From the NCBI RefSeq assembly GCF_003046625.1, contig NZ_QAAD01000002.1, positions 186,001-250,000 on the forward strand: a stretch of DNA of 64,000 nucleotides, given 5' to 3'. The notes beneath the pieces were generated by a model. It worked only from the letters and a program-made list of their open reading frames with translations, did no database searches and was not told the origin of the DNA. The DNA is from Mangrovibacterium marinum. GTDB taxonomy: Bacteria > Bacteroidota > Bacteroidia > Bacteroidales > Prolixibacteraceae. Shown one piece after another: positions 6,300 to 56,594 of the stretch (within the stretch, counting starts at the first letter, position 1; every line of letters begins with the position of its first letter). The translations under genes were made by a program, and so were the position numbers.

Positions 6300-7361
6300 T
6301 TAAACATGTTCATCTAAAAATCGGGTCAATTTTGCTTTGAATAATTTAGGTTCAAGTAAGTTGTAATAGGCCACATTGCGTTTCGCCATTGTACTCTTTG
6401 CCTTGTCTTTAAACAACTCCGGATAGAAATCCTCCAAATGAATGGCGATATGGTTCTTTTCCGAATTTGAGCTCCACCCCGCTTTATCAGTCATTGGCGC
6501 AAAAACACATAAGGTTGGAATCCCCAATGCCTTTGCCATATTCACGGCTCCACCTTCATTACCGATTAAAACTTTACATTGTTTCAAAACCGCCAGAAAA
6601 TCCCGCATTGACCTTGCAAATACGTCGAACCGAATACATGACTTACTACCTGCATTACATAACTCATAGACTTTCTGGGCTTGTTGCTTTTGAGAAGGAA
6701 TATAATTGAACAAAACAATCGGATTCACTAGCTCTTCACAAACCTGGTCTATCATTCTTGCCATAAATAGATCAGGATAGGACTTACTTTTACTACTTCC
6801 CAAGACACTAACCATGATCAATTTGGAATTATCTTCAATGTTATTTATTGAAAGGAAATTACTTGCTTGTTCTTTTTCATCTTCCGAAATAAATATTGAA
6901 GGTTGCGTTACGATCCGGTGTTCGCTCAACCCGAAAGGCTCTAACAACTGCAACCTGTTTTTAATAGCCAACCGCATTTGCGGATCCGGCTCCGAAAAAC
7001 GCACATAGGTCAAATCATAGACCCACCTGGAATACCATTTCCTCATCGAAATTTTTCGGGGTGAATTCGCGAACAGGGAAATTAAATTGCTCTCTATTTT
7101 GCAATATGCGTCAATTACAGCATCATATTTTACTTTACCAATGATTTTTAAAAACCGGTATAGTTCCTTTTTTTTACGGTAATCTTTTTTAAAGACAATT
7201 ATATGATCAATGCTGGGATGATTTTCAATTACACCAACAGTCTGCTCATTAACAACGTAATCGATCACACAGTCGGGATATTTAATTTTTAAATTATCGC
7301 AGATAATGGTGCTAGTCAGTACATCTCCGATCATTTTCTGCTGTATTACCAGGAACCTCAT
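6300..7361 (-). CDS. Glycosyltransferase family 9 (heptosyltransferase-like)
   Basis: This is a second GT9 enzyme, about 353 residues: MRFLVIQQKMIGDVLTSTII is the typical start, followed by GNEGGAVNMAKALGIPTLCVF, the family's nucleotide-sugar motif (here Gly-Asn-Glu instead of Asp-Ser). The open frame extends to 7526, but the added 55 residues overlap the preceding GT2 gene and match nothing, so I take the ATG at 7361. Base composition is more A+T-rich than the GT9 gene downstream, and the two GT9 proteins differ considerably. Its role is probably LPS or surface-glycan core extension. Confidence 0.8.
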   Translation of the reverse strand: MRFLVIQQKMIGDVLTSTIICDNLKIKYPDCVIDYVVNEQTVGVIENHPSIDHIIVFKKDYRKKKELYRFLKIIGKVKYDAVIDAYCKIESNLISLFANSPRKISMRKWYSRWVYDLTYVRFSEPDPQMRLAIKNRLQLLEPFGLSEHRIVTQPSIFISEDEKEQASNFLSINNIEDNSKLIMVSVLGSSKSKSYPDLFMARMIDQVCEELVNPIVLFNYIPSQKQQAQKVYELCNAGSKSCIRFDVFARSMRDFLAVLKQCKVLIGNEGGAVNMAKALGIPTLCVFAPMTDKAGWSSNSEKNHIAIHLEDFYPELFKDKAKSTMAKRNVAYYNLLEPKLFKAKLTRFLDEHV

Positions 7362-28753: not shown

Positions 28754-28766
28754 GTTTTTTTTTCTT

Positions 28767-29023
28767 TAGACGCTGATTGTTATGATTTCATCTGCGTCAA
28801 TCGTAAAAATCATACAAATCCGCGTCTCATCCTATAATTTCTTTCAACTTAGACGCTGATTTCGCTGATGATTCATGATCGTTATGATTTCATCCGCGTC
28901 AATCTTAAAAATCATATCAATCTGCGTCTAACTCTATATTTTCTTTCAACTTTGACGCCAATTCCGCTGATGGCTTATGATCGTTATGATTTCATCTGCG
29001 TTCATCTTCATAAATCTGCGTCT
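28767..29023. repeat. Three tandem hairpin repeats between exporter and adaptor genes
   Basis: Three related units (28767-28827, 28850-28929, 28953-29023) start with TAGACGCTGAT-like and end with ATCTGCGTCT-like sequence, so each unit has inverted ends. Each carries the core GTTATGATTTCATC. Spacers of 22-23 bases (CTATATTTTCTTTCAACTT type) are also conserved. The same end sequences bound the element at 31350-31486. No ORF is in it. Confidence 0.8.
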
Positions 29024-29042
29024 CAAACCTTAACTCGCCATT

Positions 29043-43771: not shown

Positions 43772-44033
43772 ATTTTCCGAAATCCTACAACCGAATAAAG
43801 GCTGCTACTCATCGTCAAACACCAAAAGCAAAGACCTGCTTCAACTCAATAACCGGCACCGCCTCAGACCTTCGTTGCTATTGATAATTCGTCAAAATCA
43901 TCATTTCTTATTTTTAGCTTTTTGACAAGACTTTCCGGAACATCCAAACAAGTAAAAACCGAAGAAAAATCCCCGCTGTGGAGGCAAAAAACAACAAAAA
44001 CAACTTCTTAATTTTAAATTAACAGCAATTCGC
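43772..44033. other. Gap without a supported gene
   Basis: A+T-rich spacer between the dnaJ terminator and the his promoter. No ORF, repeat or RNA was recognised. Confidence 0.5.
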
Positions 44034-44064
44034 TTTGTTCAATTTCAATTTATAACTATACTTG
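44034..44064 (+). promoter_or_regulatory. Promoter of the histidine operon
   Basis: -33 box TTTG (44034-44037), exactly 19 bases, -7 box TATACTTG (44057-44064), one mismatch from TAnnTTTG. The start should lie near 44,070, so the leader peptide begins about 14 bases into the transcript. Confidence 0.75.
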
Positions 44065-44083
44065 CAACACAAAATACAGAACA

Positions 44084-44146
44084 ATGACATTCAATAACGG
44101 ACATCACGGCCATCATCATTTTTTCCTATTACAAGGTAGGCCGTAA
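44084..44146 (+). CDS. hisL: his operon leader peptide
   Basis: This tiny ORF of 20 codons reads MTFNNGHHGHHHFFLLQGRP. Five of its residues 7-12 are His, which only makes sense as a sensor of charged tRNA-His. The ORF ends inside the sequence that forms the antiterminator. Slow translation at the His codons would change RNA pairing downstream. It matches the logic of enterobacterial HisL, with a different sequence. Confidence 0.85.
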   Translation: MTFNNGHHGHHHFFLLQGRP

Positions 44147-44215
44147 TTCTTTTGTCCGCATTGAAACAAAAAATATTAACAAAAAGAAGGCTTACCATCA
44201 GGTAGGCCTTTTTTA
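44106..44215 (+). promoter_or_regulatory. Transcription attenuator of the histidine operon
   Basis: Four segments can be seen. Segment 1, ACGGCC (44106-44111), lies among the His codons and pairs with GGCCGT (44139-44144). Segment 2, GGTAGGCC (44135-44142), can pair with segment 3, GGCTTACC (44189-44196), as antiterminator. Segment 3 also pairs with segment 4, GGTAGGCC (44201-44208), as terminator. Segments 2 and 4 are identical eight-base strings. With scarce His-tRNA the ribosome would cover segment 1, free segment 2 and allow read-through into hisG. Confidence 0.8.
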
Positions 44216-44220
44216 TTTTT
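44187..44220 (+). terminator. Attenuator terminator before hisG
   Basis: AAGGCTTACC (44187-44196), loop ATCA, GGTAGGCCTT (44201-44210), then TTTTTATTTTT. The U-run ends 13 bases before the hisG ATG. Confidence 0.85.
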
Positions 44221-44232
44221 AACAAACTGATC

Positions 44233-45093
44233 ATGACACAATTGAAAATTGCCGTCCAAAACAAAGGACGCTTGTTTGAAGATTCGATGGACTTAATTAA
44301 AGAAACCGGAATCAAATTTTCGCTCGGCAGCAGCCGTGTGCTTCTGGCCTCGGCTAAAAACTTTCCAATGGAAGCACTTTTCCTGCGCGACGACGACATT
44401 CCGCAAACCGTTGCCGATGGGGTAGCCGACATCGGTATTGTTGGCGAAAACGAAGTGCTTGAAAAGAAAATGGACGTTGTTGTTGCCAAGCGTCTTGGAT
44501 TCAGTAAATGCCGCTTATCGCTGGCCATCCCCAAGTCTGATGATTACAAGGGGCCCGAATATTTTAACGGGAAAAAAATCGCCACTTCTTACCCGGTTAT
44601 CCTAAAAGACTGGCTCGATAAAAACAAGGTAAACGCCGAAATTCATGTCATCACGGGCTCTGTTGAAATCGCTCCCGGAATTGGTTTAGCCGATGCTATT
44701 TTCGACATCGTCAGCTCCGGTTCAACGCTGGTTGCCAACCGTCTGAAAGAAGTAGAGGTAGTGACGCCATCTGAAGCACTTTTAATCGCAACTCCGAATC
44801 TTTCATCTGAAAAACAAGCCATCCTCGACGAACTGATCTTCCGTTTGGAGTCTGTTCAGCGTGCTGAAGGTAAAAAATACATCGTCCTGAATGCTCCGAA
44901 AGAGAAAATCGCCGCAATTTCAGCGATTCTTCCCGGGATGAAAAGCCCAACTGTTACGCCGTTGGCAGAAGAAGGATGGGTATCCCTATCGTCGGTCATT
45001 GCTGAAAAAGAATTCTGGGAAATCATCGGAAAACTGAAAGAAGCCGGCGCCCAGGGAATTTTAGTAATGCCGATTGAAAAAATGATTCTCTAA
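44233..45093 (+). CDS. hisG: ATP phosphoribosyltransferase, long form
   Basis: The first enzyme of histidine synthesis joins PRPP to ATP. At 286 residues it is the long form with a C-terminal regulatory ACT-like domain (about 210-286), so feedback inhibition by histidine is expected and no HisZ is needed. Visible motifs: LKIAVQNKGRLFEDSMDLIK, VADGVADIGIVGENEVLE, and the PRPP loop GIGLADAIFDIVSSGSTLVA. It is the first structural gene after the attenuator. Confidence 0.97.
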   Translation: MTQLKIAVQNKGRLFEDSMDLIKETGIKFSLGSSRVLLASAKNFPMEALFLRDDDIPQTVADGVADIGIVGENEVLEKKMDVVVAKRLGFSKCRLSLAIPKSDDYKGPEYFNGKKIATSYPVILKDWLDKNKVNAEIHVITGSVEIAPGIGLADAIFDIVSSGSTLVANRLKEVEVVTPSEALLIATPNLSSEKQAILDELIFRLESVQRAEGKKYIVLNAPKEKIAAISAILPGMKSPTVTPLAEEGWVSLSSVIAEKEFWEIIGKLKEAGAQGILVMPIEKMIL

Positions 45094-45122
45094 TAACTTC
45101 TAACGGGAAAAAATCCACACGC

Positions 45123-46412
45123 ATGAAAACTTATATTGCTCCGGCCCCTGCTGAATGGCCGAAACTGCTGGAACGCCCCCTGTTCAATGCCAACGACCTG
45201 GCCGGGCGAGTGCAAGCCATTTTGAATGACATTAAAATTGAAGGTGAAGCCGCTGTTCGACGTTACACCGAAAAATTCGACGGCGTTGTTCTGGACGAGC
45301 TGGCCGTTAGCGACAGCGAAATTGAAGAGGCCATCGCACTGGTGGCTCCCGAACTGAAAGCTGCTATTGAAACAGCCGCCGGAAATATCCTGCGTTTTCA
45401 TGCGCAACAAGCCACCGAAACCCGCAAAGTTGAAACCACCCCCGGCGTTACCTGTTGGCAAAAAGCGGTGGCCATCGAAAAGGTTGGCCTCTACATTCCG
45501 GGGGGCTCCGCCCCGCTTTTTTCAACGGTTTTAATGTTGGCTCTTCCGGCCAAAATTGCAGGCTGCAAGGAAATCGTGTTGTGTACGCCTCCGGGAAAGG
45601 ATGGTAAAATCAACCCGGCCATCTTATTTGCAGCCAAGCTGGTAGGGGTTACAAAGATTTTCAAACTTGGTGGTGTTCAGGCGATTGGCGCAATGGCTTA
45701 CGGCGCCGGCCCAGTGCCCAAAGTGTATAAGATTTTTGGCCCGGGCAACCAATACGTCATGGCAGCCAAGCAACTCATCAGCATCAGCGACGTGGCCATT
45801 GACATGCCTGCCGGCCCATCCGAAGTGGCGGTTATGGCCGACGAATCAGCCAATCCGGCCTTCATTGCCAGCGACCTGCTGTCGCAGGCTGAACACGGCC
45901 CCGACTCACAGGTCGTGCTGGTAGCAAACTCAGGCAACCTGATTGAAGCTGTTCAGACCGAGCTGGACAAGCAACTCGAACAACTCAACCGGGCCGACAT
46001 CGCCTTAAAAGCCCTCGACAATAGCGTCGCTATCGTATTGGACAGCGAAGCAGAGATGGTTGAGCTAATCAACGAGTACGCCCCCGAGCACCTGATTATC
46101 TCCATGAAAAAATACCTGGAGGTAGCCGGGAAAATCACCAATGCCGGATCTGTATTTCTGGGCAATTACACCCCCGAGAGCGCCGGCGACTATGCCTCGG
46201 GAACCAACCACACCCTGCCGACAAACGGCTGGGCCCGTTCCTTCAGTGGGGTCAACCTCGACAGCTTTACAAAAAAAATAACCTTCCAGGAAATCACCGA
46301 ACAGGGTATCCAAAAGCTCGGCCCGGTTATCGAAACTATGGCTGCTGCGGAACAACTGGACGCGCACAAAAATGCAGTAAGCTTGCGCTTAAAAGCACTT
46401 ACAAACGACTAA
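45123..46412 (+). CDS. hisD: Histidinol dehydrogenase
   Basis: This 429-residue zinc enzyme catalyses the last two oxidations, L-histidinol to histidine with NAD. Key segments: VGLYIPGGSAPLFSTVLMLA, GGVQAIGAMAYGAGPVPKVY, SDLLSQAEHGPDSQVVLV (zinc-binding Gln/His) and NEYAPEHLIISMKK with catalytic Glu and His, and ASGTNHTLPTNGWARSFSG. It follows hisG by 29 bases. Confidence 0.97.
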   Translation: MKTYIAPAPAEWPKLLERPLFNANDLAGRVQAILNDIKIEGEAAVRRYTEKFDGVVLDELAVSDSEIEEAIALVAPELKAAIETAAGNILRFHAQQATETRKVETTPGVTCWQKAVAIEKVGLYIPGGSAPLFSTVLMLALPAKIAGCKEIVLCTPPGKDGKINPAILFAAKLVGVTKIFKLGGVQAIGAMAYGAGPVPKVYKIFGPGNQYVMAAKQLISISDVAIDMPAGPSEVAVMADESANPAFIASDLLSQAEHGPDSQVVLVANSGNLIEAVQTELDKQLEQLNRADIALKALDNSVAIVLDSEAEMVELINEYAPEHLIISMKKYLEVAGKITNAGSVFLGNYTPESAGDYASGTNHTLPTNGWARSFSGVNLDSFTKKITFQEITEQGIQKLGPVIETMAAAEQLDAHKNAVSLRLKALTND

Positions 46413-46427
46413 TGGAGATCAAGAACG

Positions 46428-47459
46428 ATGAACTTAGATAAACTATTACGCGAAAACGTTAAAAACCTGAAACCATACTCGTCGGCAAGAGATGAGTTTT
46501 CGGGTGAAGCAATGGTATTTTTGGATGCCAACGAAAACCCCTATAATGCGCCTTACAACCGCTACCCGGATCCACTGCAACGTCAGTTGAAAGAGAAAAT
46601 ATCGGGTATCAAAGGATGTGCTCCGGATAAGATTTTCCTGGGTAATGGCAGCGACGAGCCCATTGATCTCCTCTTTCGTGCTTTCTGCGAGCCAGGCAAA
46701 GACAACATTGTTTCCATCGACCCAACTTATGGTATGTACCAGGTTGCTGCCGATATCAATAACATTGAAGTTCGAAAGATTAAACTGAAGGAAGACTATA
46801 GTTTTTCGGCTGACGAACTATTGGGACAGGCCGATGAAAACAGCAAACTGGCTTTCGTTTGTTCGCCCAACAACCCAACAGCCAACCTGATGGACCAGGG
46901 AGAAATGCTGAAACTCATTCAAAATTTCAAAGGCTTGGTTGTGGTCGACGAAGCTTACATCGACTTTGCGCCGGGTGCCAGTTTGTTGCCCGAGCTCGAT
47001 CGTTATCCCAATCTGGTGATCCTGCAAACCTTCTCCAAGGCTTGGGGAATGGCCGGCATCCGACTGGGGATGGCTTTCGCCTCTCCCGATATCATTAAAA
47101 TCTTCAACAAGATTAAATATCCCTACAACATCAACATCCTGACGCAACAAAAAGCCCTGGAGTTGATTGAGCAGGAAACCGAAAAGAACGCCTGGGTAGA
47201 AACGCTTCTGGCAGAACGTACAAAACTGAGCGAACAACTGAAGGCTTTTCCTTTTGTTGTAAAAATTTACCCTTCCGATGCCAACTTTCTACTGGTCAAG
47301 TTGCACGACGCCCGCGGAATTTACGACTACCTGGTTGAAAATGGCGTCATCGTTCGCGACCGCTCCAAGGTAATTTTGTGCGACGACAGCCTTCGAATCA
47401 CAGTCGGCTCACCGGAGGAAAATGAGATACTGATTGAGAAACTAAAAGAACTAATATAG
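46428..47459 (+). CDS. hisC: Histidinol-phosphate aminotransferase
   Basis: A 343-residue fold-type I PLP enzyme converting imidazole acetol phosphate to histidinol phosphate. [18 protein letters not shown] at the start, [23 protein letters not shown] (Asp for the pyridine nitrogen) and [16 protein letters not shown] with PLP-binding Lys204 are present. It follows hisD by 15 bases. Its stop is three bases before the first inverted-repeat cassette. Confidence 0.97.
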
Positions 47460-47461
47460 AA

Positions 47462-47878
47462 AATATCCAATATCGGATACTCAATAACCAATATCCAAGG
47501 ATGAATACCGAATCGAGAATTTTTGATCTGGAAGACCGCTTAATTGACTTTGCTCTGAAAGTTGATGAAATCGTTGAAAAACTTCCAAATACGAGGTTAG
47601 CCAATCATTTGGCTGGTCAAGTTGTTCGAAGCAGTACTGCTCCGGAACTGAACTACGGAGAAACGCAGTCTGCTGAATCACAACGCGATTTCATTCACAA
47701 AATGCAGATCATTTTGAAAGAACTTCGGGAAACAAGAGTGACATTGAAAATTATTCTTCGCAAACCGTTGTTGCCATTCGAAGTTGTTGATTCTGTTCTA
47801 AAAGAAAACGAAGAATTGATAGCCATTTTTGCTAAAAGCATTAAAACGGCCAAGTCGAAGCTATCTTAATTGGATATT
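47462..47878. repeat. Inverted-repeat cassette 1 (carries four-helix-bundle ORF)
   Basis: AATATCCAAT (47462-47471) and ATTGGATATT (47869-47878) are perfect inverses that bracket the ORF 47501-47869. A second ATATCC string lies at 47491-47496. The cassette fills the hisC-hisB gap exactly, with hisB starting 37 bases later. Confidence 0.6.
47501..47869 (+). CDS. Four-helix-bundle protein (S23/23S rRNA intervening-sequence family), copy 1
   Basis: 122 residues, all helical: [60 protein letters not shown]. The [15 protein letters not shown]-like segment is the mark of the family first found as ORFs inside intervening sequences of 23S rRNA genes. Function is unknown; the fold is a pentamer-forming four-helix bundle in known cases. 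It has no place in histidine synthesis. It lies between hisC and hisB, same strand, inside inverted repeats. Confidence 0.8.
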
Positions 47879-47915
47879 CAAAATTGTTTATTCATTATTC
47901 GAAATTATTAACACT

Positions 47916-49037
47916 ATGAAGAAAGCTCTTTTCATCGATAGAGACGGAACCCTGATTATTGAACCGGCGGACGAGCAAATCGACTCGCTGGAAAAACTGG
48001 AGTTCCTGCCCAAGGTTTTCCGCAATATGCATTTTATTGCCAAAAACCTCAACTACGAGTTGGTGATGGTGACCAACCAGGACGGTCTCGGAACTGATTC
48101 ATTTCCGGAGGACACCTTCTGGCCGGCACACAACAAAATGCTGAAAGCGCTCGAAAATGAAGATGTTGTTTTTGACGACATTTTAATCGACCGTCATTTT
48201 CCGCACGATAACGCGCCTACCCGCAAACCGGGCACCGGAATGATGGGCAAATACATGGACGGCAGTTACGACCTGGCCAACAGCTTTGTGATTGGCGACC
48301 GCCTGACCGACATCATGCTGGCTAAAAACCTTGGGGCTAAAGGAATCCTGATCAGCGACGGCTCATTGGTCGATGAAATGAAAGCACAAGGGCTGGAAGA
48401 CTTCTGCGCTTTGATAACCAACGACTGGGACGATATTTACGCACGCGTTGCTGCTCCGGAACGTACCGCCCGCGTTGAACGCAACACCAAAGAAACGAAG
48501 ATCCTCGTCGAGCTGAACCTGGATGGAACCGGCAAAGGAAACATCTCAACCGGGCTCGGCTTCTTCGACCACATGCTGGACCAGATTGCCCGCCACGCCG
48601 GAGTTAACCTGACGGTAAAAGTTGAAGGCGACCTGCAGGTAGACGAACACCACACCATTGAGGACACCGGACTGGCACTGGGAGAAGCGTTCAAGATCGC
48701 TTTGGGCGACAAACGAGGCGTGGAACGTTACGGCTACTGCCTGCCTATGGACGATTGTCTGGCCCAGTGCGCCATCGACTTTGGCGGACGCCCCTGGATT
48801 GTATGGGACGCCGAGTTCAAGCGCGAAAAAGTCGGCGACATGCCAACGGAGATGTTCTTCCACTTCTTTAAGTCATTTTCCGACACCTCGCTTTCGAACC
48901 TGAATATTAAAGCTGAAGGCCAGAACGAGCATCACAAAATCGAAGGAATCTTTAAAGCGCTGGCCCGCGCCATAAAAATGGCAATTAAGAAAGATGTGTT
49001 TAACTTTGAGCTTCCTTCAACTAAAGGAACCTTGTAG
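47916..49037 (+). CDS. hisB: Bifunctional histidinol-phosphatase / imidazoleglycerol-phosphate dehydratase
   Basis: 373 residues in two enzymes. The N-terminal HAD phosphatase (1-165) begins [17 protein letters not shown] with the nucleophile Asp; [17 protein letters not shown] and [19 protein letters not shown] follow. The Cys ligands of the E. coli zinc loop are absent: that loop reads [15 protein letters not shown]. The C-terminal dehydratase (from about 180) has [33 protein letters not shown] and [16 protein letters not shown], the Mn-binding His residues. The frame is open from 47829, but the ATG at 47916 is the family start. Confidence 0.95.
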
Positions 49038-49045
49038 CAAAACGA

Positions 49046-49503
49046 ACCACAAAGAACGCAAAGACTTGCACAAAGCACACGAAGTATGAATGATTTGGAA
49101 GACACGTTTAAATTGATACTCGACAATTCGTTTAAAGTACACTCAGCATTAGGGCCGGGGCTTCTTGAAAGTGCCTATGAAGAATGCCTGGCGTATGAAT
49201 TGCTTCAATGCGGCTTATTTGTGGAACGCCAGAAAGCACTGCCTCTGGTTTACAAAGATGTAAAACTGGATGCTGGCTACCGGGTCGACTTGATGGTTGA
49301 ACGAAAAATCATCATCGAAATTAAATCGATTGATGCACTGGCTGATATTCATTTGGCTCAAATACTAACTTATATGAAACTGTCCGATTCAAAACTCGGG
49401 CTCTTGGTTAACTTTAATGTAAAAAAACTCAAAGACGGCATTAAACGAGTTATCCTATAACTCTTTTGTGACCTTCGTGAAAAAACTTAGCGCCCTTTGT
49501 GGT
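49046..49503. repeat. Inverted-repeat cassette 2 (carries GxxExxY ORF)
   Basis: The left arm at 49046-49084 starts ACCACAAAGAACGCAAAG; the right arm at 49463-49503, read in reverse complement, starts ACCACAAAGGGCGCTAAG. The arms of about 40 bases stay similar to the end (CAC.AAG, then CAC..AAG), an imperfect long inverted repeat. They enclose only the GxxExxY gene. The hisB stop is 8 bases before, and purU starts 12 bases after. Confidence 0.8.
49086..49460 (+). CDS. GxxExxY family protein (PDDEXK-like)
   Basis: 124 residues. The naming motif is GPGLLESAYEECLAYEL. The core YRVDLMVERKIIIEIKSID has the Asp...Glu-x-Lys arrangement of PD-(D/E)XK nucleases, so nuclease activity is possible but unproven; the family function is unknown. 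The genes are frequent in Bacteroidota, often among unrelated genes. Here it stands between hisB and purU on the same strand, inside a 40-base inverted repeat. Confidence 0.85.
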   Translation: MNDLEDTFKLILDNSFKVHSALGPGLLESAYEECLAYELLQCGLFVERQKALPLVYKDVKLDAGYRVDLMVERKIIIEIKSIDALADIHLAQILTYMKLSDSKLGLLVNFNVKKLKDGIKRVIL

Positions 49504-49515
49504 AAAAAATAGAAT

Positions 49516-50400
49516 ATGAAAAGCATCAAACAACTTCGTGAAAAAAAGAATACAGCGATTCTTTTAATACACTGCCCCGATAAACAAGGAATTTTGGCAA
49601 CAGTTACTGAATTTCTGAATGAAAATAACGGCAATATTATCTACCTGGATCAATATGTCGACCGCGTTGAAAAGATTTTTTACATGCGGGTTGAGTGGGA
49701 ACTGGAAGGTTTTGCCATTCCCGCGGATAAAATCAAAGAATATTTCGACACGCTGATTGCCTCGAAACTGGAAATGGATTACTCGATCCATTTTTCGAAA
49801 CAGATGCCCCGCATGGCCATCTTCGTTTCCAAGATGTCGCATTGTTTGTTCGACATCCTTTCGCGCTACACCGCCGGCGAATGGGATGTTGAAATTCCGC
49901 TGATCATCAGCAACCACAAAGACCTGGAGCCCGTTGCTCAGCGTTTCGACATTGCCTTCCACTACATTCCGGTAACCAAGGAAAACAAAGCCGAACAGGA
50001 AGCCCTGGAAATTGAACTGCTGAAAAAATACAAAGTCGATTTCATTGTCTTAGCTCGATACATGCAGGTTCTTTCTCCGGAGTTTGTCAGCAAGTACCCC
50101 AACCGGATTATCAACATTCACCACTCGTTTCTCCCCGCTTTTGCAGGGGCTAAGCCTTACCATGCCGCACATGCCCGTGGTGTGAAGATTATTGGTGCCA
50201 CCAGCCACTACGTGACCAGCGAGTTGGATGGAGGCCCGATCATTGAACAGGATGTAACCCGCTGCAGCCATATTGATACGGTTGAACGCCTGGTTCGCAA
50301 AGGGCGCGACCTGGAGAAGATTGTCCTGTCGCATGCCGTATTCAAGCATCTGCAGCGCAAAATTTTGGTTTACAAGAACAAGACCGTCGTCTTTAACTAG
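49516..50400 (+). CDS. purU: Formyltetrahydrofolate deformylase
   Basis: 294 residues. An N-terminal ACT domain (ILLIHCPDKQGILATVTEFL, about 14-90) is followed by the formyltransferase-like catalytic domain with IINIHHSFLPAFAGAKPYHAA and GATSHYVTSELDGGPIIEQDV, which carry the catalytic Asn, His and Asp. It hydrolyses 10-formyl-THF to formate and THF, balancing one-carbon pools. HisF/HisH releases AICAR, which consumes 10-formyl-THF in purine synthesis, so a metabolic link with the operon is plausible, though inferred. Confidence 0.93.
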   Translation: MKSIKQLREKKNTAILLIHCPDKQGILATVTEFLNENNGNIIYLDQYVDRVEKIFYMRVEWELEGFAIPADKIKEYFDTLIASKLEMDYSIHFSKQMPRMAIFVSKMSHCLFDILSRYTAGEWDVEIPLIISNHKDLEPVAQRFDIAFHYIPVTKENKAEQEALEIELLKKYKVDFIVLARYMQVLSPEFVSKYPNRIINIHHSFLPAFAGAKPYHAAHARGVKIIGATSHYVTSELDGGPIIEQDVTRCSHIDTVERLVRKGRDLEKIVLSHAVFKHLQRKILVYKNKTVVFN

Positions 50401-50412
50401 TAACGATATTTT

Positions 50413-50949
50413 ATGAAGAAATTGAAGAACACGCTGAAAAGCATCATTAGCCTAATTGCAATATTTGCAGGCATCAACGCCTCGGCCCAAACGGACTATG
50501 GCTACCTTGTGAAGGTCGGCGATCGGGCTCCGGATTTTGAAACAACAACTCCCGATGGGACGATCGTCAAACTTTCGGATCTGCGCGGAAAGGTTGTGAT
50601 GCTTCAATTTACAGCCAGCTGGTGCAGCGTTTGCCGCAAAGAAATGCCGCATATTGAAGCCGATATCTGGAACAAACACAAGAGCAATCCCGATTTCGCC
50701 CTGTACGGAGTGGATCTGGATGAACCGGCGGAGAAAGTCGAAGCCTTTGCCCAACAAATACCGGTGAGCTACCCGCTGCTGCTCGATGCGAAAGGAGAAA
50801 TTTTCTACCAATATGCTGAAAAAGGAGCCGGCGTCACCCGCAACGTTATCATCGACAAAAACGGTAAAATTGTTTTTCTCACGCGGCTTTTCAAGCAAGA
50901 AGAGTTTGACCAGATGAAAGCTGTAATTGAAGAATTGCTGAAAAAATAG
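50413..50949 (+). CDS. TlpA-like thioredoxin-fold protein, exported
   Basis: 178 residues: an N-terminal signal sequence (SIISLIAIFAGINASAQ, cut after SAQ) and a redoxin domain with VGDRAPDFETTTPDGTIVKL and MLQFTASWCSVCRKEMPH (Cys71, Cys74). The cis-Pro residue is replaced near AGVTRNVIIDKNGKI (Thr before Arg), unlike the TlpA protein at 41.2 kb which has Ile-Pro, so its redox partner or rate may differ. It follows purU by 12 bases, in the his transcript. No role in histidine synthesis is known. Confidence 0.85.
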   Translation: MKKLKNTLKSIISLIAIFAGINASAQTDYGYLVKVGDRAPDFETTTPDGTIVKLSDLRGKVVMLQFTASWCSVCRKEMPHIEADIWNKHKSNPDFALYGVDLDEPAEKVEAFAQQIPVSYPLLLDAKGEIFYQYAEKGAGVTRNVIIDKNGKIVFLTRLFKQEEFDQMKAVIEELLKK

Positions 50950-50952
50950 TAC

Positions 50953-51406
50953 AGAAGTACGAAGTACATGAGTTCATAAGTACTTCCACAAACGAAATAA
51001 TCGACGATGAAAACCTACCGTGAATTTGTTGCCTGGCAAAAAGCCATGACCTTTGTAACCAAAGTGTATAAGACTACCCGCAATTTTCCTCGCGAGGAGT
51101 TATTTGGGCTCACAAGTCAGATCCGAAGGTCAGCGATTTCGATTCCCTCAAATTTTGCAGAGGGCTTTGGACGGAAAGGCAACAACGAGTTTCTACGTTT
51201 CATCCGCATTGCTATCGGTTCACTTTATGAATGTCAAACTCAATTAGAAATCGCATTCAATATTGAATACCTTGAAATGCAAAAATTCGAAGAACTTTTC
51301 GAACAAAGCAGAGAAATTGAAGCGCTGTTAAGGGGACTAGAAAAGAAATTATCGGCCCAAAACTCATGAAATCATGTACTTTACACTCATGAACTAAAAT
51401 TAAAAC
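50953..51406. repeat. Inverted-repeat cassette 3 (carries four-helix-bundle ORF)
   Basis: Left end GAAGTACATGAGTTCATAAG (within 50953-50996) and right end 51366-51406, whose reverse complement reads AGTACATGATTTCATGAG, form an imperfect inverted repeat. The right end begins inside the ORF stop codon. Both ends are repeated, without an ORF between them, at 52864-52947. Confidence 0.75.
51007..51369 (+). CDS. Four-helix-bundle protein (S23/23S rRNA intervening-sequence family), copy 2
   Basis: 120 residues with the classic family pattern: WQKAMTFVTKVYKTTRNFP, EELFGLTSQIRRSAISIPSN, FAEGFGRKGNNEFLRFIRIA and GSLYECQTQLEIAFN. It is clearly a different branch from copy 1 at 47.5 kb (few shared residues outside the R-S/S-I-P area). 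It lies between the redoxin gene and hisH, same strand, inside an inverted-repeat cassette. Function unknown. Confidence 0.9.
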   Translation: MKTYREFVAWQKAMTFVTKVYKTTRNFPREELFGLTSQIRRSAISIPSNFAEGFGRKGNNEFLRFIRIAIGSLYECQTQLEIAFNIEYLEMQKFEELFEQSREIEALLRGLEKKLSAQNS

Positions 51407-51408
51407 CC

Positions 51409-52008
51409 ATGAATTTAGTCATCATCAAATACAACGCCGGGAACATTGAGTCGGTGAACAACGCACTGGAGAGATTGGGCGTAAAAGCTGAAATTACCGG
51501 CGACCACGAGAAAATAAAAGCGGCCGACAAGGTCATTTTTCCGGGAGTTGGCGAGGCCAGCACAACCATGGCTTTCCTCAAACAAGAAGGCCTGGACAAA
51601 CTGATCCCCTCCCTCAAACAGCCGGTTTTAGGCATCTGCCTCGGACTGCAACTGATGTGCAGCCATTCGGAAGAAGGCGACACAGCTTGCCTCGGTATTT
51701 TCGAAGAAAAAGTGAAACGCTTTCAACCAAAACCGGGCATGGAGTACGTCACCAAAGTACCGCACATGGGCTGGAACACGATTACCAACCTGAAAAGTGA
51801 CCTGTTCGACGCGTCTCTGCAAGACCAGTTCGTATACTTTGTTCACTCGTACTACGCAACGGTGGGAGAACACACGGCTGCAGTGGGCAATTACATCAAC
51901 CCGTTTAGCGCGGCTTTGCACAAAGACAATTTTTACGCCACCCAGTTTCACCCTGAAAAAAGCGGAACTGTAGGCGCCAGGATCTTGGAAAACTTTATAA
52001 AATTATAA
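51409..52008 (+). CDS. hisH: Imidazole glycerol phosphate synthase, glutaminase subunit
   Basis: 199 residues, class I glutamine amidotransferase. VLGICLGLQLM carries nucleophile Cys77, and QFHPEKSG the His181/Glu183 pair; the PGVGEAS oxyanion strand is also present. It supplies ammonia to HisF through the barrel. Its ATG lies directly after the right end of cassette 3. Confidence 0.97.
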   Translation: MNLVIIKYNAGNIESVNNALERLGVKAEITGDHEKIKAADKVIFPGVGEASTTMAFLKQEGLDKLIPSLKQPVLGICLGLQLMCSHSEEGDTACLGIFEEKVKRFQPKPGMEYVTKVPHMGWNTITNLKSDLFDASLQDQFVYFVHSYYATVGEHTAAVGNYINPFSAALHKDNFYATQFHPEKSGTVGARILENFIKL

Positions 52009-52122
52009 GCCCCTCCTAACCTCCCCGAAGGGGAGGAACAAAGAAGGCGAACAGATAAGAACTTTTTAGTAAAACTTCAAAAAAACGATTCCCCCTCCCT
52101 CGGAGGGGGCTAGGGGGAGGCC
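52009..52122. repeat. Inverted pair of GC-rich hairpins without ORF
   Basis: Hairpin CCTCCCCGAAGGGGAGG (52020-52036) and hairpin CCCCCTCCCTCGGAGGGGG (52091-52109) each fold on themselves. The left block CCCCTCCTAACCTCCCC and the right block in reverse complement (CCTCCCCCTAGCCCCCTCC) are variants of the same sequence, so the pair forms a larger inverted repeat with a 54-base A-rich centre. It fills the hisH-hisA gap. Confidence 0.75.
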
Positions 52123-52127
52123 TATTT

Positions 52128-52853
52128 ATGATTACAATAATCCCAGCCATCGACCTGATCGACGCCAAGTGCGTGCGCTTGTCTCAAGGCGATTACAATC
52201 AAAAGACTGTTTACAACGAAAATCCGCTCGAAGTAGCCAAGATGTTCGAAGATGCCGGAATTACCCGTCTTCACCTGGTTGACCTGGATGGCGCCAAAGC
52301 CAAACACATTGTCAACTACAAAGTTCTGGAAACCATCGCCTCTAAAACCAACCTGGTAATCGACTTCGGAGGTGGGTTGAAAAGCGATGAAGATCTGCGC
52401 ATCGCCTTCGAAAGCGGCGCACAAATGGTTACCGGCGGAAGTATCGCAGTGAAAGACCGGGAAACTTTCCTGAGTTGGATTGAAACCTACGGAGCCGAAA
52501 AAATCATACTTGGAGCCGATGCTAAAGACAAGAAAATCGCGGTAAGTGGCTGGCAGGAAGTTTCGGAACTGCCGATCCTCGATTTTATCGATGGCTACAC
52601 ACAAAAAGGCATCCAAAAAGTGATCTCAACCGACATTGCCCGCGATGGTATGTTGAGTGGACCAAGTATTGAGCTTTACAAAGAAATATTGGATCAATTC
52701 CCGAAACTGGAATTAATTGCCAGTGGCGGAATCGCGTCGATGAAAGATATTATTGAACTGGACGAGATGGGCGTGCCCGGCGTAATTACCGGCAAAGCCA
52801 TTTACGAAAACAGAATCAGTTTGGAAGAAATTGAAAAGTACATAAGTAAATAG
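52128..52853 (+). CDS. hisA: ProFAR isomerase
   Basis: 241 residues forming a TIM barrel that isomerises ProFAR to PRFAR. The N-terminal [20 protein letters not shown] holds catalytic Asp9; [15 protein letters not shown] and [20 protein letters not shown] (second catalytic Asp) are the phosphate-binding half-barrel repeats. It is preceded by the hairpin pair at 52.0-52.1 kb. Confidence 0.97.
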
Positions 52854-52863
52854 TCCATTCGTG

Positions 52864-52947
52864 TATAAGTCCAAAGTACATAAGTTCCGATAACGAACAC
52901 CACTTATGGACTTATGAACATCGCACTTATGAACTCAAAATCAAAAC
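52864..52947. repeat. ORF-less copy of the cassette 3 termini
   Basis: The left part (AAGTCCAAAGTACATAAGTTC ends at 52887) matches the left end of cassette 3 (GAAGTACATGAGTTC), and the right part CACTTATGAACTCAAAATC matches its right end CACTCATGAACTAAAATT. ATAAGTCCA (52865-52873) and TGGACTTAT (52907-52915) form a perfect nine-pair stem. No ORF lies inside. It fills the hisA-hisF gap. Confidence 0.75.
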
Positions 52948-52953
52948 TGCATC

Positions 52954-53709
52954 ATGCTTGCAAAACGAATAATACCATGCCTGGATATCAAAGACGGTCA
53001 GACCGTGAAGGGCATCAACTTTGTCAATATAAAAAGTGTGGGAGACCCGGTTGAACTGGGCGCGATGTACGCCGAGCAAGGAGCCGACGAGCTGGTTTTC
53101 CTCGACATTACCGCGACCCACGAAGGCCGCAAAACCTTTGTTGACCTGGTGAAACGCATCGCCCGCGAAATCAACATTCCTTTCACAGTTGGCGGCGGCA
53201 TCAGCGAACTGAAGGATGCGGAAGCCCTGTTGAGTGCCGGTGCCGACAAGATCAGCATCAACTCATCGGCTGTGCGCAACCCGAAACTGATCGACGAGCT
53301 GGCCCTCAATTTCGGAACACAGTTCGTGGTGGTTGCCATCGACGCCAAAAACTACGATGGCCGCTGGACGGTAACTGTCAATGGAGGCCGCATTCCAACC
53401 GACAAAGAGTTATTCTCGTGGGCCAAGGAAGCGGAAAATCGGGGCGCCGGCGAGATTCTGTTCACCTCGATGGATCACGATGGAACGAAAGCTGGTTTTG
53501 CCAATGCCGAATTGTCGAAAATGGCCGACATGTTGAAAATCCCGATCATCGCCTCCGGCGGTGCCGGTAACATGGATCACTTTGTCGATGTTTTCACCAA
53601 AGGAAAGGCCGATGCCGGACTGGCAGCAAGCATCTTCCACTACAAGGAAATTGCCATCCCCGATTTGAAGCATTACCTGAAAAACAAAGGTATTGCAGTT
53701 CGCGAATAA
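52954..53709 (+). CDS. hisF: Imidazole glycerol phosphate synthase, cyclase subunit
   Basis: 251 residues, TIM barrel. [20 protein letters not shown] carries catalytic Asp11, [20 protein letters not shown] the second catalytic Asp, and [15 protein letters not shown] binds phosphate. With HisH it makes imidazole glycerol phosphate and AICAR. It lies 100 bases after hisA. Confidence 0.97.
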
Positions 53710-53742
53710 GCTGACTATCTTTAGGACTCTCAAGTTACAACC

Positions 53743-54834
53743 ATGAAACCAGTGCCACAGCAACAGTTATTCGAATCAATCAGGCAAGTGCTAAACAGCG
53801 CCTGGAAAAACATTTACCGCGCAACCAACTCGAACATGGTCGTTGCTTACTGGCAAATTGGCAGGCTAATTGTTGAAGACGAGCAAAACGGTGAGTCCCG
53901 CGCCGATTACGGCAAGATGATCCTGCAAGAACTTTCCGGGAAACTCACGGAAGAATTTGGACGAGGATTCTCCGTTACGAACCTCAAAAACTTCCGGAAA
54001 TTCTACCTGACTTTCCCGGAAATACAGGGAATTCACGGTGAAACTGATGATCAAATGCAAAAAAGTCAGACAGTGTCTGACTTATTGAGCTGGTCACATT
54101 ACTGCCTGTTAATGAAGGTTGAAGATATCGAAGCCCGCAACTTTTACATTCAGGAATCGATAAACCAGAACTGGAGTGTCAGAGCCCTCGACCGGCAAAT
54201 CAGCACCTTGTATTACGAACGATTGCTGTCCAGTCAGGATAAATTGGCCATTCAACAAGAGGCCGAATCAAAAACGAACGATCTGAAAGACTCAGCACGC
54301 GACTTCATTAAAGATCCCTATATTCTTGAATTTTTGAAATTAACGCCGGGGAATACTTACCTGGAGAAAACACTCGAAAATTCGCTATTAGAAAATCTTC
54401 AGTCCTTCATTCTCGAACTGGGAAAAGGTTTTGCCTTTGTTGGCCGTCAGTACCACATCAATGTAGGGAACGAGCATTACTACATCGATTTGGTCTTCTA
54501 TAATTACATCCTGAAATGCTTTGTATTGATGGATCTGAAGGTGGGTAAATTAACCCACCAGGATGTCGGGCAGATGGACATGTATGTTCGCCTGTTTGAG
54601 GAAAAAATTCGACAAAATGACGACAACCCCACAATCGGAATCATTTTGTGTTCTCAACAAAACGAGTCGGTTATTAAATATTCGGTCTTGGCCGAAAACA
54701 AACAACTTTTCACGTCAAGATACAAGCTGTACCTTCCGACTGAAGAAGAATTGAAAAAAGAAATTGAACGCGACCGAATTCATATTGAAAACCGGTTACA
54801 GGAAGAATTTGTAAAATATTATTCAAAAAAATAG
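53743..54834 (+). CDS. DUF1016 / YhcG-family PDDEXK nuclease
   Basis: 363 residues in the two-domain layout of the family. The N-terminal DUF1016_N part has VVAYWQIGRLIVEDEQNG, YGKMILQELSGKLTEEFGRG and NLKNFRKFYLTFPE. The C-terminal nuclease part (from about 210) has FAFVGRQYHINVGNEHYYID, then LVFYNYILKCFVLMDLKVGK, giving the Asp...Asp-x-Lys metal site, and DVGQMDMYVRLFE. The family is spread by transfer and sometimes found near restriction-type genes; its biological role is unsettled. It stands between hisF (33 bases) and hisIE (10 bases) without inverted repeats. Confidence 0.85.
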   Translation: MKPVPQQQLFESIRQVLNSAWKNIYRATNSNMVVAYWQIGRLIVEDEQNGESRADYGKMILQELSGKLTEEFGRGFSVTNLKNFRKFYLTFPEIQGIHGETDDQMQKSQTVSDLLSWSHYCLLMKVEDIEARNFYIQESINQNWSVRALDRQISTLYYERLLSSQDKLAIQQEAESKTNDLKDSARDFIKDPYILEFLKLTPGNTYLEKTLENSLLENLQSFILELGKGFAFVGRQYHINVGNEHYYIDLVFYNYILKCFVLMDLKVGKLTHQDVGQMDMYVRLFEEKIRQNDDNPTIGIILCSQQNESVIKYSVLAENKQLFTSRYKLYLPTEEELKKEIERDRIHIENRLQEEFVKYYSKK

Positions 54835-54844
54835 CATCATAATT

Positions 54845-55441
54845 ATGTCTCAAGTAGATTTTGAAAAAATGAATGGCCTGGTTCCGGCCATCATCCAGGA
54901 CAACAACACCAACAAAGTGTTGATGCTTGGTTTTATGAACGAAGACGCACTGGCAAAAACCGAAGAGCTGGGCAAAGTAACTTTCTTCAGCCGCACCAAA
55001 AACCGTCTTTGGACCAAAGGTGAAGAAAGCGGAAACTTCCTGAATGTTGTTTCAATCGCCTCAGACTGCGACAACGACACACTGCTGATTAAAGTGAACC
55101 CGGTTGGGCCGGTTTGCCACACCGGCAGCGACACCTGCTGGAACGAAACGAACTCGGAAGATGTAATGTTCCTGAAATACCTGCAGGATTTCATTGACAA
55201 GCGCAAGGAAGAAATGCCGGAAGGATCGTACACCACTTCCTTATTCCAAAAAGGAACACGCAAAATCACGCAAAAAGTAGGTGAAGAAGCTGTTGAAACC
55301 ATCATTGGCGCCATGGCAAACGACGACGAAAACTTCCTGTACGAGGGAGCCGATCTGCTTTATCACCTCATCGTTCTGCTAACACACAAAGGTTACCGGA
55401 TCGAAGATTTGGCCCGCGAACTGAAAAAACGCCACAAATAA
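54845..55441 (+). CDS. hisIE: Bifunctional PR-AMP cyclohydrolase / PR-ATP pyrophosphatase
   Basis: 198 residues. The N-terminal HisI half has MLGFMNEDALAKTEELGKVT, FFSRTKNRLWTKGEESGN and PVCHTGSDTCW, the zinc-binding Cys motif. The C-terminal HisE half has FQKGTRKITQKVGEEAVETI and GADLLYHLIVLLTHKG. The fusion catalyses steps 2 and 3 of the pathway. It is the last gene of the operon, closed by a strong terminator. Confidence 0.96.
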   Translation: MSQVDFEKMNGLVPAIIQDNNTNKVLMLGFMNEDALAKTEELGKVTFFSRTKNRLWTKGEESGNFLNVVSIASDCDNDTLLIKVNPVGPVCHTGSDTCWNETNSEDVMFLKYLQDFIDKRKEEMPEGSYTTSLFQKGTRKITQKVGEEAVETIIGAMANDDENFLYEGADLLYHLIVLLTHKGYRIEDLARELKKRHK

Positions 55442-55480
55442 TACCGGAGAGCAAAGCTGCTACCGGTATCGGATGATAAC

Positions 55481-55512
55481 AAAAGGGACGAATTTTTCGA
55501 TTCGTCCCTTTT
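55481..55512 (+). terminator. Terminator of the histidine operon
   Basis: AAAAGGGACGAAT (55481-55493), loop TTTTCG, ATTCGTCCCTTTT (55500-55512): a perfect 13-pair stem, symmetric so possibly bidirectional. It lies 40 bases after the hisIE stop. Confidence 0.85.
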
Positions 55513-55531
55513 GTGCCAACTTCAAACTTTA

Positions 55532-55636
55532 TCGGACAACCTGCAAACGCTGTCAGATCACCTGCAAGCTTCGTCGGGCGACCCGCATACAGCTGCGGAC
55601 GAGCCACCGGTTTTAACGGGCCAATCGCAAATACCA
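55532..55636. repeat. Degenerate 21-base tandem repeat
   Basis: Five units of 21 bases can be aligned: TCGGACAACCTGCAAACGCTG, TCAGATCACCTGCAAGCTTCG and so on, with the pattern TCGG.C.ACC.GCAA declining toward the end. In the plus frame it would encode GQPAN/GRPAY-like repeats, but with no start or family support. It lies between the his terminator and the esterase gene. Confidence 0.55.
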
Positions 55637-55682
55637 TCGCCCAAACCAACAGGTTCTGCCTGAAAGTCGAAAATGATTCAAA

Positions 55683-55700
55683 ACAGTTGTTAACAACTGT
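55683..55700. promoter_or_regulatory. Perfect 18-base palindrome upstream of the esterase gene
   Basis: ACAGTTGTTAACAACTGT is an uninterrupted palindrome 79 bases before the esterase ATG, the shape of a dimeric repressor operator. No regulator is known. Confidence 0.4.
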
Positions 55701-55778
55701 AAAACAATCCGTTTTAACAGGACTTGCTATTTCGCAGAATCAACTTTTGCCTATATTCGCCCCAACAATTCCCCCGGT

Positions 55779-56594
55779 ATGCGCTTAAAACTGCTCTTCA
55801 TCGTTTTCCTGTTCTTTTCGATTGCTTTCAGATTGGAAGCTGCCGAAGGTGAACGACCATTAAAGCAGGTACACTACAACTACCTCACCTACGTGCCCGA
55901 AAACTACGACAGCACACAAGCCAATTTGTACCCGGTAGTCATCTATCTGCATGGTCGGTCGGCATCGGGAACGGACCTCAACCGGGTTCGCCGCTACGGT
56001 CTGCCCTACTTCCTGGATCACGGTAAAAAGATGGATTTTATTGTTGTTGCACCGCAATGCCCCTGGGGAAAACGCTGGTCGAGCGAAAATTGGCTGGACT
56101 CGATGATGGTTGAATTGAATGCCAAGTACCGGATTGACAACGATCGGATTTACCTGACCGGCATGAGTCTCGGCGGCTTTGGAACCTGGGAGTTAGCCAA
56201 TATGTACCCGAATCGGTTTGCAGCCATTGCCCCCATGTGTGGCGGTGGAAATACAGCCTGGGCCGACAATATTTTCCATATCCCAACCTGGGTTTTTCAC
56301 GGGGTTCAGGATCGTTTGGTTCCGGTTCTGCGATCAGATCAAATGGTGAAGGCACTCGAAGCGCATCATGCTTTGGTCAAGTATGACCGTTTGAGTAAAA
56401 AAGGGCACGACTTGAGTCGCCTTTTCAATGATGACAGGCTCTATGCGTGGTTTGCCCAATTTACACGCCGTCCAATTGACGAAGATAATTCTCTTCCCCC
56501 TATTGAACCTCTTTGGTTCAGCGAATTCAAGAGTCCAACACCCGAAGTATCCCCAACGTCAGGTCTTCCATCGCCCAGGATCGGCTCATTTTAG
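55779..56594 (+). CDS. Secreted alpha/beta-hydrolase (esterase)
   Basis: 271 residues with a signal peptide (LKLLFIVFLFFSIAFRLEAA). The oxyanion region is YPVVIYLHGRSASGTDLN, the nucleophile elbow YLTGMSLGGFG has Ser130, the acid is likely Asp178 in HGVQDRLVP, and the catalytic His is His210 in KKGHDLS. This is the pattern of the secreted esterase/PHB-depolymerase-like and feruloyl-esterase-like group. A 40-residue Pro/Ser-rich tail follows the domain. It would act in the periplasm or outside on an ester of unknown kind. Confidence 0.82.
   Translation: MRLKLLFIVFLFFSIAFRLEAAEGERPLKQVHYNYLTYVPENYDSTQANLYPVVIYLHGRSASGTDLNRVRRYGLPYFLDHGKKMDFIVVAPQCPWGKRWSSENWLDSMMVELNAKYRIDNDRIYLTGMSLGGFGTWELANMYPNRFAAIAPMCGGGNTAWADNIFHIPTWVFHGVQDRLVPVLRSDQMVKALEAHHALVKYDRLSKKGHDLSRLFNDDRLYAWFAQFTRRPIDEDNSLPPIEPLWFSEFKSPTPEVSPTSGLPSPRIGSF

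Follow-up and report, generated by a model that had tools for sequence, protein, structure and literature searches.

The hisA-hisF gap and neighboring cassettes

Within the window (the whole stretch of 64,000 nucleotides of Mangrovibacterium marinum DNA that was analyzed), the gap between hisA and hisF measures 100 bp (52854-52953, plus strand), because the hisA stop is at 52853 and the hisF start at 52954. The original prediction had given it 84 bases, which misses part of the gap and the reach of its array into hisA. The gap is occupied by a gene-less hairpin of inverted octamer arrays, with a left arm at 52865-52887 (plus strand, ATAAGTCCAAAGTACATAAGTTC) and a right arm at 52901-52935 that carries the octamers as reverse complement (minus strand, CACTTATGGACTTATGAACATCGCACTTATGAACT). 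A nine-pair stem without a gene, as had been predicted, is formed by 52865-52873 and 52907-52915, which are 100% complementary. The octamer array already starts within the final codons of hisA (AAGTACATAAGTAAATAG, 52836-52853), where an octamer-like stretch lies at 52836-52849 (plus strand, AAGTACATAAGTAA); it seems, from these codons, that the array extends into hisA while the coding meaning is kept.

Three filled cassettes lie nearby. The one between the thioredoxin-like gene tlp and hisH comprises a left octamer arm (50948-50983, plus strand), an ORF of 120 aa termed 4HB2 (51007-51369, plus strand; PF05635 23S_rRNA_IVP / TIGR02436 four helix bundle protein; E=2.6e-39 for PF05635), and a right octamer arm (51359-51396, minus strand) that overlaps the end of the ORF and is predicted to pair, at the RNA level, with the left arm. 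The second occupies the hisC-hisB gap (47460-47915, plus strand), with a AATATCCA-type arm (47460-47500), the 4HB1 ORF (47501-47869), and an inverted arm (47870-47915). The third follows hisB (49038-49515, plus strand) and consists of a CACAAAG-type arm (49038-49085), a GxxExxY ORF (49086-49460), and an inverted arm (49461-49515). In addition, tandem inverted arrays of GACGCAGATTGA-type words at 28754-29042 (minus strand), between two minus-strand genes, hold no ORF, have a predicted fold with z -4.76, and are a probable second gene-less cassette of the window. The 4HB protein is related to XCC0516 (2gsc) and weakly to Avd, the partner of reverse transcriptase in diversity-generating retroelements.

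Other features were seen in the his region. The hisH-hisA gap contains a strong inverted repeat (52009-52127, CCCCTCC.../...GGAGGGG), and similar elements occur in his gaps of G005, G035, G036, G066, and G148. A DUF1016/YhcG nuclease gene with no evident arms is located between hisF and hisIE (53743-54834), and G024 has a homolog between hisD and hisC. Rfam returned just two sub-threshold matches in the his region, both outside the hairpin and the cassettes of interest; there was no rRNA match within 44000-56000, and a plasmid search with the cassette as query gave no match.

Similarity and folding of the arrays

The strings originally reported as common to the gap and the tlp-hisH cassette are present, as GAAGTACATGAGTTC (50961-50975) versus AAAGTACATAAGTTC (52873-52887) and as CACTCATGAACTAAAATT (51384-51401) versus CACTTATGAACTCAAAATC (52924-52942). 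When the gap was aligned with the joined cassette flanks, the similarity persisted far above dinucleotide shuffles, with a score of 27 compared with a shuffle mean of 11.1 (sd 2.1, maximum 21); none of 2,000 shuffles reached 27. The shared ends are real as similarity but not as two fixed termini: what the gap and the flanks have in common is a degenerate tandem array of octamers, AGTnCATR, in arms inverted toward each other. Scored alone, the right flank reached 19 (shuffles 8.8, maximum 17) and the left flank 17 (shuffles 9.1, p=0.003), and the two halves of the gap, scored as an inverted repeat, reached 15 (shuffle mean 7.0, maximum 14).

The predicted RNA fold was better than shuffles, with z -3.57 for 52864-52947 and z -2.56 for 52836-52950, as was the predicted single-stranded DNA fold of the latter (z -4.14). 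The predicted fold of the hisA-hisF gap of G025 was no better than shuffles (z -1.18).

Filled, gene-less, and clean his gaps among relatives

We compared three his gaps (tlp-hisH, hisH-hisA, and hisA-hisF) over 26 relatives and found filled, gene-less, and clean states. At tlp-hisH, an orthologous 4HB gene with octamer arms is present in G000, G025, G065, G150, G153, G154, and G156, ORF-less remnants are present in G023 and G155, of one genus with the ORF-bearing G153, G154, and G156, and clean junctions of 2-17 bp are found in G001, G003, and G157. From these sequences, loss of the ORF at tlp-hisH is plausible in G023 and G155. The hisH-hisA gap holds ORF-less octamer arrays in G153, G023, G156, and G155 and, in many relatives, 4HB cassettes built on other words. 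At hisA-hisF, ORF-less octamer arrays occur in G000, G025, and G152, and decayed ones in G153 and G155; a 4HB gene lies there in G154 and G006, with non-octamer arms (GGCAGAA repeats in G006), and the gap is 19 bp in G001. None of the relatives read has an octamer-armed ORF at hisA-hisF.

The 4HB1 orthologs at hisC-hisB retain AATATCCA arms in most genera; in the same slot of G035 the ORF is 66% identical, yet both arms are AAGGAATAA-like, and on this comparison both arms are apparently replaced together. ORF-less forms of the CACAAAG type, which is that of GxxExxY arms, were found in G061 (hisA-hisF) and G005 (hisC-hisB). These forms, the gene-less arrays in the his gaps of other genomes, and a further array in a cobO-btuC gap (see below) bear out the proposal that the unit is separate from the ORF.

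We also observed that in array-bearing genomes the last codons of hisA match the octamer, with serine encoded as AGT in G025, G153, and G155; the corresponding serine codon is TCA in G001 and G023, where the gap has no array.

The octamer word elsewhere in the genome

Genome-wide counts were obtained by pattern and family searches of the 4.6-Mb genome. The 13-mer AGTNCATRAGTNC has 61 exact matches, compared with 0 for the reversed-pattern control, and most of them belong to direct arrays, in a different context, on contigs C11, C37, and C30. A third ORF-less inverted hairpin was found on contig C29, between cobO and a btuC/fecD-like permease gene (both named from inspection of translations). 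The prediction had named, as a refuting outcome, ends confined to the two his sites by local duplication; this outcome was not observed, as the word occurs elsewhere, but its presence at both hisA-hisF and tlp-hisH in several genera leaves room for local spread between these two.

On contigs C11, C37, and C30 (L043 1-7100, L045, L046, and L047), the direct octamer arrays end in GGYGCAAC. They often have a hairpin, TTGAGCTGGTGAC...GTTCACCGGCTCAA, ahead of them and are spaced about 0.3-1.7 kb apart, with small ORFs between, some of which resemble, by inspection, HEPN/nucleotidyltransferase and toxin-antitoxin genes; judged by its sequence, the layout resembles a cassette array. On C19 (L049 6077-7120), the frame of a RAYT (REP-associated tyrosine transposase) is apparently split by a GIY-YIG ORF (6630-6911), and an octamer array follows right 3' of its stop.

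Inverted arms at PF05635 and GxxExxY genes

Each of the 12 PF05635 genes in this genome is flanked by inverted arrays, whose words are mostly different and include GATTGATGG, TTTTGAC, GAAGGATTGA, CTCAGT, GTCATT, AATATCCA, and AGTnCATR, among others. We scored each upstream flank against the reverse complement of its own downstream flank (matched) and of all other downstream flanks (mismatched). For the 12 genes, the matched mean was 19.8 and the mismatched mean 10.4. At the family level, where the genomes are mutually related and loci were chosen by best family score, matched and mismatched means were 19.1 and 11.2 for 40 4HB loci and 18.8 and 12.1 for 28 GxxExxY loci, compared with 12.1 and 10.9 for 29 HisF control loci.

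Across about 15 phyla, 77 4HB loci from named genomes, collected with a narrower alignment than the 12-member 4HB set, gave 22.0 (matched) and 11.0 (mismatched); 71% of them exceeded the mismatched 95th percentile, and about 30% were indistinguishable from mismatched pairs. A neighboring-gene control for the same 77 loci gave 12.6, with scores of at least 18 in 11% of cases versus 71% of the 4HB genes (p = 3.6e-18). Direct repeats at 4HB loci were weaker than inverted ones (14.3 versus 22.0), and strong direct repeats are likewise present at some GxxExxY loci. Among orthologs that share one word in one slot, matched and mismatched arms were inseparable, and no fine covariation of the arms was seen. 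The 4HB genes are co-oriented with both neighbors at 97% of the family loci and 75% of the phyla loci, and the median gaps are 42-77 bp. Their closest named matches are in Prolixibacteraceae, Bacteroidota, and none of 20 distant 4HB loci tested sits in rRNA. No description of inverted arrays at PF05635 or GxxExxY genes emerged from a literature search of incomplete coverage.

Origin of the gene-less form

The hisA-hisF gap has inverted, locus-matched oligomer arms and co-oriented neighbor genes, as in the cassettes for which an ORF is optional. On balance, the gap probably belongs, as a gene-less form, to a class of inverted-array cassettes located between co-transcribed genes. This reading builds on the observed architecture of the cassettes, their separability from the ORF, their presence and absence among relatives, and their sense placement between operon genes. 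Within it, the original prediction of a deletion derivative is a special case that we regard as possible yet rather doubtful: the gap would once have contained a filled 4HB cassette with AGTnCATR arms, whose ORF later disappeared. The gap word is indeed identical to that of the filled tlp-hisH cassette, the ORF-less state of tlp-hisH in G023 and G155 beside ORF-bearing congeners makes ORF loss plausible at that site, and 4HB2-type frames in G150, G152, and G153 carry stops within or just past the aligned stretch. At hisA-hisF itself, however, all five genomes with the octamer are ORF-less, and the 4HB genes that do occupy this gap (G154 and G006) have other arms. Because no relative has an octamer-armed ORF there, it is at least as likely that a gene-less unit was placed or inherited as such.

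Accounts that dispense with a separate element, or invoke a different one, are less likely in our judgment. The array might have been copied from the tlp-hisH cassette, 2 kb away, with which it has the word in common in G000, G025, G153, and G152 or its congeners. Alternatively, it might have grown by slippage from the 3' end of hisA, which is already word-like in G001 (AAGTTCATCTCAGCATAG). Slippage alone would give no opposed arms, and the gap has both; moreover, the word recurs elsewhere, including the inverted hairpin on C29, and other gaps contain inverted arrays that are built from unrelated words and have no ORF, so we hold local spread to be unlikely. A plain intercistronic hairpin, retained to regulate his expression or stabilize the mRNA and without any history as an element, would agree with the location between hisA and hisF, the predicted fold, and the hairpins of other his gaps such as CCCCTCC/GGAGGGG at 52009-52127. 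It is still less probable, given that these junctions measure 2-19 bp in G001, a member of the same genus, that unrelated hairpins or cassettes replace the gap sequence in other relatives, and that the identical arm type brackets an unrelated ORF and also sits in a cobalamin operon. The least credible account, to which we attach very little weight, is a REPIN-like element mobilized by a RAYT: the gap is an extragenic inverted doublet of about 100 bp that is predicted to fold, and the broken RAYT on C19 has an octamer array after its stop, but no octamer array lies within about 1.5 kb of the other PF01797 genes found in the genome, and the arms are tandem 8-mers with a word varying by cassette rather than one high-copy 16-mer REP (PMC3116915).

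A model of the cassette and its implications

In the cassette reading favored above, each cassette would have two opposed arms, both built from degenerate tandem copies of one word of 6-10 letters. Since the arms are in opposite orientation, the transcript or single-stranded DNA could fold into a stem, which in filled cassettes would enclose a small ORF for a PF05635 four-helix bundle or GxxExxY nuclease-fold protein and in gene-less ones would remain as the hairpin alone. Going by the sequence comparisons, the arm pair is the unit and the gene is optional. The hairpin may be cut, or may shield the mRNA, by analogy with the cutting of intervening sequences (IVS) of 23S rRNA by RNase III. The cassette could spread by copying of the folded strand, and the 4HB protein, a distant relative of Avd, might help in trans; since this protein is related to XCC0516 and weakly to Avd, strand copying with 4HB help is a guess worth testing. 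No integration enzyme was found for the hisA-hisF element or the cassettes. Weak constraint on the spacing of cistrons most likely explains why the gene-less copy is tolerated, and between cistrons an IVS-like unit would need no precise removal.

More broadly, we propose, with slightly more doubt than confidence, that PF05635 and GxxExxY genes are the cargo of phylum-spanning elements that enter operon gaps. Such an element would consist of two inverted arrays, whose shared word is site-specific and replaceable on both arms together, and which can persist gene-free. If so, the pairing of the arms, not their sequence, is what matters, and the mode of maintenance or copying would be one undescribed for rRNA IVS, MITEs, and REPINs. 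PF05635 proteins are widespread; if their genes are hairpin-cassette cargo, the scattered copies, including those inside cas operons, would be explained, and caution would be needed in inferring their function from operon neighbors. The same proposal would tie PF05635 genes to rRNA IVS and would allow the spread of IVS to be tested in a free-living bacterium. The gene-less hisA-hisF form shows that it is the arms, not the gene, that define the unit.

Comparison with known systems

The analysis points to a little-described class of cassettes between operon genes. Like a MITE, the gap is a gene-less version sharing ends with a gene-bearing one, but the MITE-like interpretation is not supported in the strict sense. 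Fixed terminal inverted repeats are absent, the octamer arrays being degenerate, of variable length, and with an arm word specific to the cassette; no autonomous transposase partner was identified, the partner cassette encoding a 4HB protein and no transposase; and the copy number is low. Comparison with the clean gaps of G001 and G003 revealed no target-site duplication, but these gaps are too short to be decisive. With REPINs (PMC3116915) the gap shares the form of a short, non-coding, foldable extragenic inverted doublet of about 100 nt, but it differs in its tandem-octamer arms, the few inverted copies, the lack of an intact RAYT nearby, and the existence of related cassettes with an ORF. 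A RAYT gene flanked by the same REP was not found either: PF01797 loci are without octamers, with the broken RAYT on C19 as the sole exception.

Intergenic heptamer arrays (TAACTGA repeats) are short-word tandem arrays in gaps, including those of Bacteroidetes, for which the author considered gene rearrangement (PMC4679880). They are direct and of one word, whereas the cassettes have two opposed arrays, a locus-specific word, and a tie to PF05635 and GxxExxY genes. Closer in placement are the 23S_rRNA_IVP genes of cas operons: in Pleurocapsa, a 4HB (23S_rRNA_IVP) gene lies between cmr3 and cmr2, with short gaps (PMC3936711), thus between operon genes as here. The passages of that paper on these genes treat 23S_rRNA_IVP as a function in cas loci and do not deal with flanking arrays.

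The IVS of bacterial 23S rRNA have complementary arms, the S23p ORF family, a sporadic distribution, ORF decay, and RNase III excision without ligation (PMC4990558, Coxiella burnetii). In both the IVS and the hisA-hisF gap, complementary arms form a stem, and the ORF family of the neighboring filled cassette is PF05635, although the gap itself has no ORF. ORF-less IVS are known in Salmonella. The gap and the cassettes differ in that they lie between protein-coding genes of an mRNA, outside rRNA genes, and have arms made of tandem arrays with a word differing by locus; by analogy, excision may occur here. As none of the 20 distant loci is in rRNA, the link to IVS rests on the ORF family and the layout. 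Of the known systems, the IVS comes nearest, with a his mRNA, instead of 23S rRNA, as host of the hairpin.
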